From positions 62,001-126,000 of the forward strand of contig NZ_JAAWWS010000137.1 in NCBI RefSeq assembly GCF_012272825.1: a stretch of DNA of 64,000 nt, given 5' to 3'. The stretch's first letter is position 1; every line of letters starts with the position of its first letter. Source of the stretch: Wenzhouxiangella sp. XN79A. Lineage in GTDB: Bacteria > Pseudomonadota > Gammaproteobacteria > Xanthomonadales > Wenzhouxiangellaceae. The notes below the pieces were generated by a model, which was given only the letters and a program-made list of their open reading frames with translations, was not told the DNA's origin and did no database searches. Positions 43,509 to 44,780 of the stretch are shown here, piece by piece. A program made the position numbers and the translations under genes.

Positions 43509-44108
43509 ATGCAGTCGACGCTCGAAGCGAGCGCGCCCATGGCGCGCGACGCGCGCACGCAGCCGCTGCGGGTTCCGTTGCTGCTGGAACGGCTCGATGC
43601 CTTGAACGAGGCGCGGCGCGAGCACTGGCTTGATCTCGGGCGGGCCCAGCCCGCGCTGATCGAGCGATTGGCCCGCGGACCGAATCGCCTGGTCGTGGCG
43701 GATTTCGCCGCACCGGATACCGAGCGCGGACTGCCGGGCACGGTGCCGGCCGTCCCATCGACCGGGTTCGACGTCGTGCTGGCCTGGGACTGGCCGAACT
43801 ACCTGGTCCCGGAGGGGCTTTCCCGGCTCGGTGCGGAATTGGCGCGCTGTTCCCACGCGGGCACGGTCCTCCACGCCCTGATCCACTATCGCAACGACCG
43901 GATGCCGGAAACGCCCCAGCGGCTCCGCCTGGCCGCGGACGGCCGGCTCGATGAAGATGGTGTGGTCGAGCACCTGCGCCCGGCCCCCCGGTACAGCCCC
44001 AAGGCGCTGGAGAAGGCCATGTGCCACTGGCAGGTCGATCGGACCCTGCTGCTCAACAACGGCATGCAGGAATTCGTGCTGCGGTTGCGCTCGACCTCCG
44101 CGCACTGA
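43509..44108 (+). CDS. Hypothetical protein, possible degenerate methyltransferase fold
   Basis: The 199-residue protein is leucine- and arginine-rich. The middle (NRLVVADFAAPDTE, then TGFDVVLAWDWPNYL and ELARCSHAGTVLHALIHY) has the strand-helix alternation of a class I SAM-dependent methyltransferase, but the glycine-rich SAM motif is missing, so catalysis is doubtful. No signal peptide or membrane helix is present. It follows the bactofilin gene by 17 bp and ends just before the hairpin that terminates hsp20 on the other strand. Confidence 0.6.
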   Translation: MQSTLEASAPMARDARTQPLRVPLLLERLDALNEARREHWLDLGRAQPALIERLARGPNRLVVADFAAPDTERGLPGTVPAVPSTGFDVVLAWDWPNYLVPEGLSRLGAELARCSHAGTVLHALIHYRNDRMPETPQRLRLAADGRLDEDGVVEHLRPAPRYSPKALEKAMCHWQVDRTLLLNNGMQEFVLRLRSTSAH

Positions 44109-44127
44109 CGAACCCCGGACAGGAAAA

Positions 44128-44152
44128 GGGGCGCCGGAACCTCCGGCGCCCC
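44128..44152 (-). terminator. Intrinsic terminator of hsp20
   Basis: An 11-bp perfect GC-rich stem (GGGGCGCCGGA and its complement) with a 3-nt loop is followed on the minus strand by TTTTCC. It lies 32 bp beyond the hsp20 stop. The plus strand lacks a T-run here. Confidence 0.8.
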
Positions 44153-44184
44153 CACGATCGCATGGATCGGGCCTTGCTGTCGCG

Positions 44185-44658
44185 TCAGGCAGCGTCCGAG
44201 GCCTGCTCGGAATCGCTTTCCAGCAGCTCCTCGCGGCGCTGGCCGGCAATCGCGATCCGACGCGGCTTCATCCGCTCGGGCAGTTCACGCTGCAGCTCGA
44301 TATGCAGCAGACCGTTCTCGAGGCTGGCCGATTCGACGCGAACGTGGTCGGCCAGCTGGAAGCGACGCTCGAAGGAACGCGTAGCGATGCCGCGATACAG
44401 GAACTGGCGATCATCGCCGTCGTCATCCTGCTTGCCGCCGGAGATGGTCAGCGTGTTCTGCTCGCTGACGATGTCCAGTTCGTCGTCGGAGAATCCGGCC
44501 ACCGCCATGGTGATCCGGTACCGATCCTCGCCGCGCGCTTCGATGTTGTAGGGCGGGTAGCCGGTACCGTCGACGCGAGCGGCGTTGCTGAGCATGTCGG
44601 CCAGGCGATCGAAGCCGATGGCCGTGCGATACAGGGGGGTAAGATCGAACGTAGTCAT
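44185..44658 (-). CDS. Small heat-shock protein, Hsp20/alpha-crystallin family (IbpA-like)
   Basis: The 157-residue chaperone binds unfolding proteins and keeps them refoldable for DnaK and ClpB. An N-terminal arm (MTTFDLTPLYRTAIGFDRLADML) is followed by the alpha-crystallin domain (YRITMAVAGFSDDELDI, FLYRGIATRSFERRFQL, ENGLLHIELQRELP), the last having the hallmark GLL-I/L pattern. The arm and FLYRGIATRSFERRF are strongly IbpA-like. The ATG at 44658 is preceded by AGGA, which is folded into a ROSE-like hairpin, and a sigma-32-like promoter lies about 95 bp upstream. A terminator follows. Regulation is therefore both transcriptional and translational. Confidence 0.95.
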   Translation of the reverse strand: MTTFDLTPLYRTAIGFDRLADMLSNAARVDGTGYPPYNIEARGEDRYRITMAVAGFSDDELDIVSEQNTLTISGGKQDDDGDDRQFLYRGIATRSFERRFQLADHVRVESASLENGLLHIELQRELPERMKPRRIAIAGQRREELLESDSEQASDAA

Positions 44659-44720
44659 GGGTCTATCCTCCAATGAGCAATAGGTGGTGCAACATTCGGA
44701 ACCGCCGGATGGCCGGTTCC
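44659..44720 (-). promoter_or_regulatory. ROSE-like RNA thermometer in the hsp20 5' leader
   Basis: In the mRNA the segment CUAUUGCU (44683-44676) pairs with AGGAUAG (44669-44663), leaving one bulged G opposite the AGG of the ribosome site, loop of 6 nt. The anti-Shine-Dalgarno UUGCU with a G bulge facing AGGA is the signature of ROSE elements, which melt on heat shock. A second hairpin (GGAACCG/CGGTTCC, 44698-44720) lies upstream, as ROSE leaders usually have extra stable stems. The hidden AGGA is 7 nt from the ATG. Known families: ROSE and ibpA thermometers of proteobacteria. Confidence 0.78.
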
Positions 44721-44751
44721 GGAGGCCCCTCATCGGCGACCTCGGGGACAG

Positions 44752-44780
44752 AAATGGTCACGCCCGGCGGGCGTTTCAAG
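44752..44780 (-). promoter_or_regulatory. Sigma-32 (heat-shock) promoter of hsp20
   Basis: On the minus strand, CTTGAAA (44780-44774) is a perfect sigma-32 -35 element, followed after 15 bp by ACCATTT (44758-44752), one mismatch from the CCCATNT -10 element. It sits in the 154-bp gap between the der stop and hsp20 and would give a leader of about 85 nt holding the thermometer. Confidence 0.82.

Follow-up and report, generated by a model that had tools for sequence, protein, structure and literature searches.

How is an IbpA-type small heat-shock gene controlled in a gammaproteobacterium of the family Wenzhouxiangellaceae? The question is raised by an hsp20 gene in the window, the stretch of 64,000 nucleotides of Wenzhouxiangella sp. 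XN79A DNA analysed here. From the DNA alone, an earlier note had claimed for this gene a double heat control, in which a sigma-32 promoter is joined to a ROSE-like RNA thermometer. We propose that the segment is very probably just that, the promoter and 5′ leader of an ibpA gene that would be transcribed by sigma-32 polymerase and thermosensed by a ROSE-type hairpin. The claim of double control is supported by the conservation of the promoter, by covariation in the leader, and by matches of a covariance model of the leader in Bradyrhizobium and at E. coli ibpB; the start site, the heat response, including the thermal opening of the RNA, and autoregulation by IbpA are what we infer from these likenesses. 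Dual control of ibpA by sigma-32 and ROSE is already known from Pseudomonas, and the window leader adds to this known kind.

The ibpA Gene and Its Leader

The features of the locus, all on the minus strand, are listed in Table 1. The product shares 53% identity with E. coli IbpA and 40% with IbpB, and a search of the host genome with the protein's own sequence (E ≤ 0.001) returns the ibpA-type hsp20 as the only match. The gene der precedes ibpA on the same strand. An in-frame upstream ATG at 44733, which would open a 182-residue reading frame, was ruled out as the ibpA start because the leaders differ by indels that are not multiples of three.

Table 1. Positions of the ibpA gene, its promoter, and the predicted elements of its leader in the window.
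Feature	Position	Strand	Basis or remark
hsp20/ibpA coding sequence, 157 aa	44185..44658	-	PF00011, E = 8.9e-20
Terminator-like hairpin with T tail, 3′ of ibpA	44127..44153	-	separates ibpA from the convergent gene 43509-44108
-35 box CTTGAAA of sigma-32-type promoter	44774..44780	-	read directly
-10 box ACCATTT, spacer 15 nt	44752..44758	-	read directly; 5/8 positions agree with the relatives' consensus
Predicted transcription start	44743..44747	-	distance from the -10 box, hairpin 1 spacing, folds
Hairpin 1, bulged G at 44737	44722..44743	-	RNAalifold, covariation, folding; bulge column G in 58/59
Hairpin 2, bulged G at 44713	44697..44721	-	RNAalifold, covariation, folding
Hairpin 3, ROSE core, bulged G at 44678	44663..44683	-	CUAUUGCUC (44683-44675) pairs with GAGGAUAG (44670-44663)
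Shine-Dalgarno GGAGGA, 7 nt from the ATG at 44658	44666..44671	-	read directly

The leader is 89 nt long and has three predicted hairpins. In the third, an anti-Shine-Dalgarno (anti-SD) segment can pair with the Shine-Dalgarno (SD) sequence around a bulged G, as the earlier note had proposed, and the SD lies at the distance from the ATG given there. The same note had placed one further stable stem upstream; a stem is indeed present, though there are two of them, hairpins 1 and 2. Transcription is predicted to start a few nucleotides before hairpin 1. When hairpin 1 is located by pattern, it lies 42-43 nt from the -35 box in 44 of 59 related leaders, a constancy that is expected if transcription begins right before it.

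The anatomy agrees with that described for ROSE-type elements in the accessible text of PMC13104619 and PMC3669281, as follows. The leaders are 60-120 nt long, usually precede a small heat-shock protein (sHsp) gene, and have two to four hairpins, in one of which U(U/C)GCU pairs with the SD and an unpaired G stands opposite. The window leader matches in length, in its three hairpins, and in the PF00011 gene that follows. The core of the element is likewise indicated by sequence and comparative evidence, with the single-sequence energy folding being equivocal.

A Sigma-32-Type Promoter

Sigma-32 promoters have the consensus CTTGAAA, a spacing of 13-15 nt, and a CCCATNT-like -10 box. The promoter at 44780-44752 has a CTTGAAA, a spacing in this range, and a -10 box of this kind, and an rpoH gene is found in the host genome (407 bits against a cut-off of 323.1). 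We infer from this that sigma-32 acts at ibpA, in agreement with what had been read from the sequence earlier.

The regions upstream of 60 hsp20 genes of the order Xanthomonadales, the window's own included, were surveyed for the same arrangement. CTTGA, whose conservation is partly by construction since it was the search key, occurs somewhere in the scanned stretch of all 60 leaders, the single copy in one of them (L031) being judged a chance occurrence. In 59 of the 60, a -10-like box follows 12-15 nt further on. With the -10 box of each leader taken as the best of ten offsets, the best match lies at a spacing of 14-15 in 55 of these 59 leaders and of 12-13 in four. CCCATCTA is matched at 6 or more of its 8 positions in 37/59 leaders, and at 5/8 by the window's own box.

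A search of the host genome for CTTGAA-N14-18-CCATNT finds eight sites (three with the reversed control pattern). Three of the eight precede hsp20, groES (L154), and htpG (L147), the last two named by reading their translations. The pattern is thus shared with other heat-shock genes of the genome.

Two observations on the promoter region may be added. A perfect palindrome, ACGCCCGCCGGGCGT, at 44760-44774 overlaps the promoter spacer; it is absent from the same place in the other leaders and, from this comparison of sequences, is probably incidental. The L031 leader (genome G007) keeps the hairpin 3 sequence and has neither a recognisable sigma-32 -35 box nor hairpin 1. The control of ibpA has apparently been rewired in this genome.

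Conservation and Covariation of the Hairpins

Alignment A1 comprises 59 leaders, among them that of the window, which represent six families of the order. Left out were L010 and L014, in which the leader is cut by a contig end; L063 and L064, which are weak paralogue matches; and L031, which has no -35 box. The -35 box of L004 and of L022 was placed manually. From A1, RNAalifold recovers hairpins 1 and 2, with double changes at 12 of the 13 pairs, and leaves hairpin 3 unpredicted. When all three hairpins are considered (21 pairs in 59 leaders), 91.2% of the cells are paired and 14 pairs have changes on both sides, a count that favours hairpins 1 and 2, which were derived from the same alignment, while the pairs of hairpin 3 were assigned manually after the window sequence. 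The covariation score of this structure is 0.382, above all of 500 shuffles (0.183, sd 0.008), and six slid versions of the structure reach at most 0.117.

Hairpin 3 is conserved in another manner. Its core is nearly invariant. Double changes occur only at the outermost and third pairs, and in 21-22 of the 59 leaders the two outer pairs do not form. The bulged G is present in 59/59 aligned leaders. Of the 60 leaders of the order, the window's among them, 59 have U(U/C)GCU no more than 45 nt from the start, as do 76 of 78 named homologues; at other SD-ATG sites of the same loci the figure is 50 of 574. By a simple folding test on the aligned leaders, the C of the anti-SD has a downstream G as its partner in 55/59. 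To judge by the covariation, ROSE-type leaders stand ahead of ibpA in six families of the order. In three relatives (L032, L034, and L035) hairpin 2 is lacking, which gives a two-hairpin ROSE leader as in Pseudomonas.

Energy Folding of the Window Sequence

Folded alone, the sequence of the window leader gives hairpin 3 only partial backing. Predicted RNAs that begin at 44747, 44745, or 44743 and extend 15 nt past the ATG show all three hairpins in the minimum-energy fold, the third being CUAUUGCUC/GAGGAUAG around G44678. For this 3′ end and 5′ ends from 44747 to 44743, the minimum-energy fold at 37 °C contains the ROSE core, whose probability is 0.59-0.65. The outcome depends on the ends chosen. 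An RNA ending at the ATG has the core in its minimum-energy fold at 37 °C for 5′ ends 44746-44743 (0.28-0.41), and over the whole range 44747-44743 the core probability is 0.09-0.41. With 30 nt past the ATG, the core is in the fold at 37 °C for 5′ ends 44747-44744 (0.20-0.22); with 60 nt, it is absent from the fold and its probability is about 0.1 (5′ ends 44747-44743). A 5′ end at 44748 or 44742 also removes the core from the minimum-energy fold, the segment 44640-44755, which includes promoter nucleotides, adopts a different long-range fold that lacks the core, and the window's own 92-nt row of A1 folds without hairpin 3. The leader region folds moderately better than its shuffles (z -2.7). 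Since the energy folding is equivocal for the window alone, hairpin 3 rests chiefly on the comparison with its relatives.

Folded by itself at 37 °C, hairpin 3 has an energy of -5.3 kcal/mol, and removal of the bulged G brings this to -9.1. Nearest-neighbour folding from 25 to 50 °C models only a slight opening of the SD, which speaks neither for nor against a heat response.

Distribution and Relation to Known ROSE Elements

Covariance model R1 was built from A1. It was run on 101 genomes of the order, a sample in which the window's own family weighs heavily, with 41 first-look candidates scored per genome. At E ≤ 0.01, 62 of the genomes have a site, one each, beside the hsp20 match; they belong to 20 of the 43 genera and to six of the twelve families. 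L031 and L060 are the two leaders, out of the 60 studied, without an R1 match. Among named loci, the best 80 of 583 by protein similarity and including two training genomes of R1, the model matches at the start of hsp20 in 71 loci with E ≤ 1 and in 56 with E ≤ 0.01. Bradyrhizobium, the founding ROSE lineage, has leaders that R1 finds with up to 50.5 bits. The E. coli ibpB leader is also matched (L155 1402-1477; 27.9 bits), and the E. coli ibpA leader gives no R1 match up to E = 10. Five Aeromonas loci (L083, L084, L090, L097, and L106) have a second R1 match around 1943-2010, just past the first sHsp gene, which probably precedes a second sHsp gene.

The earlier note had called for a covariance search with the Rfam ROSE families, and here the outcome is below the curated cut-offs. 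RF00435 (ROSE) gives 25.2 bits on the window, short of its gathering score of 45, and RF01832 (ROSE_2; gathering score 65) lists nothing in the window stretch at E-values up to 10; as a control, ROSE_2 finds the E. coli ibpA leader with 100.4 bits. Neither model reaches its gathering score on 20 loci of the order or on 20 named loci. The best RF00435 score in the order is 40.1 (L061). Among the named loci, chosen from R1 matches, RF00435 reaches its gathering score in 0/20, Bradyrhizobium included. A scan of ten loci, five of them Bradyrhizobium, lists no RF00435 match at E ≤ 1. We read the shortfall as reflecting narrow curated models more than absent kinship. By the published anatomy we class the window element as ROSE-type, outside both RF00435 and RF01832 as these are curated. 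Searches with the curated models miss such leaders, as shown by the order loci scanned, none of which reaches the Rfam cut-offs.

It had also been suggested that the element would extend the ROSE type to this lineage. The R1 matches in the order bear this out, and the extension is a modest one, given that PMC4166951 cites a 2005 report of more than 40 ROSE-type elements from diverse alpha- and gammaproteobacteria. Among the matches listed in the literature search, no paper on ROSE or small heat-shock thermometers names Wenzhouxiangella.

The likenesses to individual systems are as follows. Bradyrhizobium hspA ROSE1 (RF00435), like the window element, is a 5′ leader that precedes an sHsp gene and has several hairpins, with U(U/C)GCU facing the SD and a bulged G, and the RF00435 consensus has a bulge in hairpin 1, as does the window's hairpin 1. 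The window differs in its RF00435 score, its three hairpins, and its gammaproteobacterial host. The short ROSE-like thermometers of Pseudomonas ibpA are alike in combining a sigma-32 promoter with a ROSE hairpin, and excerpts of PMC3669281 report that sigma-32 transcription and the release of the SD on warming were shown for them. Their thermosensing hairpins have energies of -4.1 to -7.6 kcal/mol (PMC3669281), a range in which the window's hairpin 3 falls; the Pseudomonas leader has two hairpins and that of the window three. E. coli ibpA ROSE_2 (RF01832) and the ibpB leader share the gene family, the core, and predicted 5′-bulged Gs, of which ibpA has three in its leader and ibpB two. In contrast, the E. 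coli ibpA leader and the window each go unlisted by the model of the other, up to E = 10. The ROSE-G thermometers, in the available portion of PMC12857270, also have a UGCU-type anti-SD with a bulged G, and differ in having two opposed bulged Gs and in preceding ABC transporter genes.

Probable IbpA Autorepression, a Proposed Mechanism, and Its Rivals

A third layer of control is likely, by analogy with other IbpA proteins, in which IbpA would bind its own leader and repress its translation. According to the accessible text of PMC10474464, IbpA of E. coli, Cedecea, and Vibrio binds its own 5′ UTR and represses translation through R93, which is irreplaceable, and an aromatic residue at position 34 is needed for self-repression. 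The window IbpA has these residues of an R93-type autoregulator, R94 (the R93 equivalent) and Y34, together with R98 and R99. The R93 position is Arg in 62/62 sequences of the order (own included) and in 78/78 named homologues, and all 140 aligned IbpA-type sequences carry an aromatic residue at position 34. The R93 position is Gln in E. coli IbpB, for which self-repression is reported to be absent.

The proposed mechanism is as follows. Transcription by sigma-32 polymerase would begin a few nucleotides ahead of hairpin 1. At normal temperature, ribosomes would be kept off by hairpin 3, in which UUGCU pairs with the SD around the bulged G. On warming, the weak hairpin 3 would open and IbpA would be made, while the GC-rich hairpins 1 and 2 would, by analogy with the Pseudomonas work, remain folded. 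By homology, IbpA would bind the leader and repress its own translation as long as no aggregates occupy it.

The conservation of the autorepression residues also suits another explanation, in which the leader is mainly an IbpA-binding site and heat acts through aggregates that release IbpA, not through melting of the RNA. The repression through R93 reported for three genera in excerpts of PMC10474464, the residues R93 and aromatic 34 kept throughout the order and the named homologues, and the recurrence of bulged Gs in hairpins that have no need to melt (see below) all speak for it. Nevertheless, we consider it unlikely. The UUGCU/SD hairpin has the reported anatomy of a thermosensor, and isolated Pseudomonas hairpins of this kind melt with temperature in vitro without IbpA (PMC3669281, available text). 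Moreover, no 5′-bulged G is predicted around the start of the rpoH mRNA of E. coli, itself a reported target of IbpA.

Very unlikely, in our judgement, is that sigma-32 transcription alone matters and that the hairpins are passive or merely stabilise the mRNA. Elements that stabilise an mRNA typically form a stable hairpin close to its 5′ end, the promoter is strongly conserved, and the folding of hairpin 3 is equivocal in the window alone; stabilisation by a 5′ hairpin is also suggested in PMC3669281. A passive leader, however, would not keep the anti-SD in 59/60 leaders and the bulged G in 59/59 aligned. The remaining explanation is chance complementarity in a GC-rich leader, given that any SD can find partners and that the region folds only moderately better than shuffles. 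We give it next to no credence, as the covariation, the R1 matches, and the conservation of the anti-SD oppose it and the structure is conserved across six families of the order, by which chance is already refuted. We therefore retain the sigma-32-transcribed ROSE leader as the best explanation.

A Recurrent Bulged G on the 5′ Strands

The hairpins of these leaders share a further regularity. In the minimum-energy folds of the 59 leaders of the order, there are 134 single-nucleotide G bulges on 5′ strands, against 3.45 in dinucleotide shuffles; on 3′ strands, there is one, against 3.3 expected. The leaders are related by descent, and these and the following counts are therefore not of independent events. 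The pattern was first noticed in the order and then tested on the named loci, whose class and genus labels were assigned by hand from record titles. It recurs in a gamma set of 47 leaders, the two of E. coli included (68 against 2.45), and in an alpha set of 31 (53 against 2.5). By comparison, 200 other SD-ATG upstream regions show no excess (18 against 19.5).

The bulges are not confined to the SD hairpin. When hairpin 3 is excluded, 39 bulges remain in 45 gamma leaders (against 2.25; none in 14) and 38 in the 31 alpha leaders (against 2.75; none in eight). With about one leader per genus (39 leaders, approximate because several metagenome-assembled genomes have no genus), 47 bulges remain against 2.15, and they are present in 32 leaders. 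L070, a betaproteobacterial locus, and L142, which is unlabelled, are outside the alpha and gamma sets and inside the per-genus set. In A1, the bulge column of hairpin 1 is G in 58/59 leaders while the adjacent pairs change in a compensated way. When the hairpins are folded separately, the 5′-bulged G is drawn in 53/59 for hairpin 1, in 48/56 for hairpin 2 (three leaders lack it), and in 34/59 for hairpin 3, where small internal loops mostly take its place. The contexts of the upstream bulges vary (C-G-C, G-G-C, U-G-C, and U-G-U), so that the bulged G is a structural regularity and not one sequence block.

Why should such a G be kept? The bulged G of hairpin 3 tunes melting; as a reason for bulges in the stable upstream hairpins, this is weak. 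Nor does common ancestry of one stem account for a bulge that recurs in separate hairpins within a single RNA. It is tempting to suggest, although we hold this to be doubtful, that the recurrent 5′ bulged G of ibpA ROSE hairpins from alpha- to gammaproteobacteria, which usually stands immediately before a C-G (or U-A) pair and recurs between stems of unlike sequence, is a docking mark for an IbpA oligomer through Arg93 (here Arg94) and Tyr34. If true, one leader would read sigma-32 activity, temperature, and free IbpA together, and the G of the SD hairpin would serve heat sensing and IbpA docking alike. The available text of PMC10474464 states that IbpA seems to bind structured RNAs such as thermometers, and that of PMC10746627 calls its RNA specificity unclear. 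Multivalent recognition of bulged Gs by Arg93 would agree with these statements, and the recurrent bulged G is a concrete and mutable candidate for the recognition mark. Counting against the docking idea, five folds of E. coli rpoH, covering about 300 nt around the start, have no 5′-bulged G. The groES and htpG leaders of the host genome have none either, the htpG piece being short, about 30 nt up to the first ATG that follows.

Bulged Gs in upstream hairpins are not discussed in the literature searched, which includes the accessible parts of PMC12857270, PMC4288164, and PMC13104619; the original ROSE papers of 2001-2006 may hold an earlier remark on them. The curated consensus structures nevertheless draw such bulges: RF00435 has them in hairpins 1 and 3 (not 2), and RF01832 in both of its hairpins.
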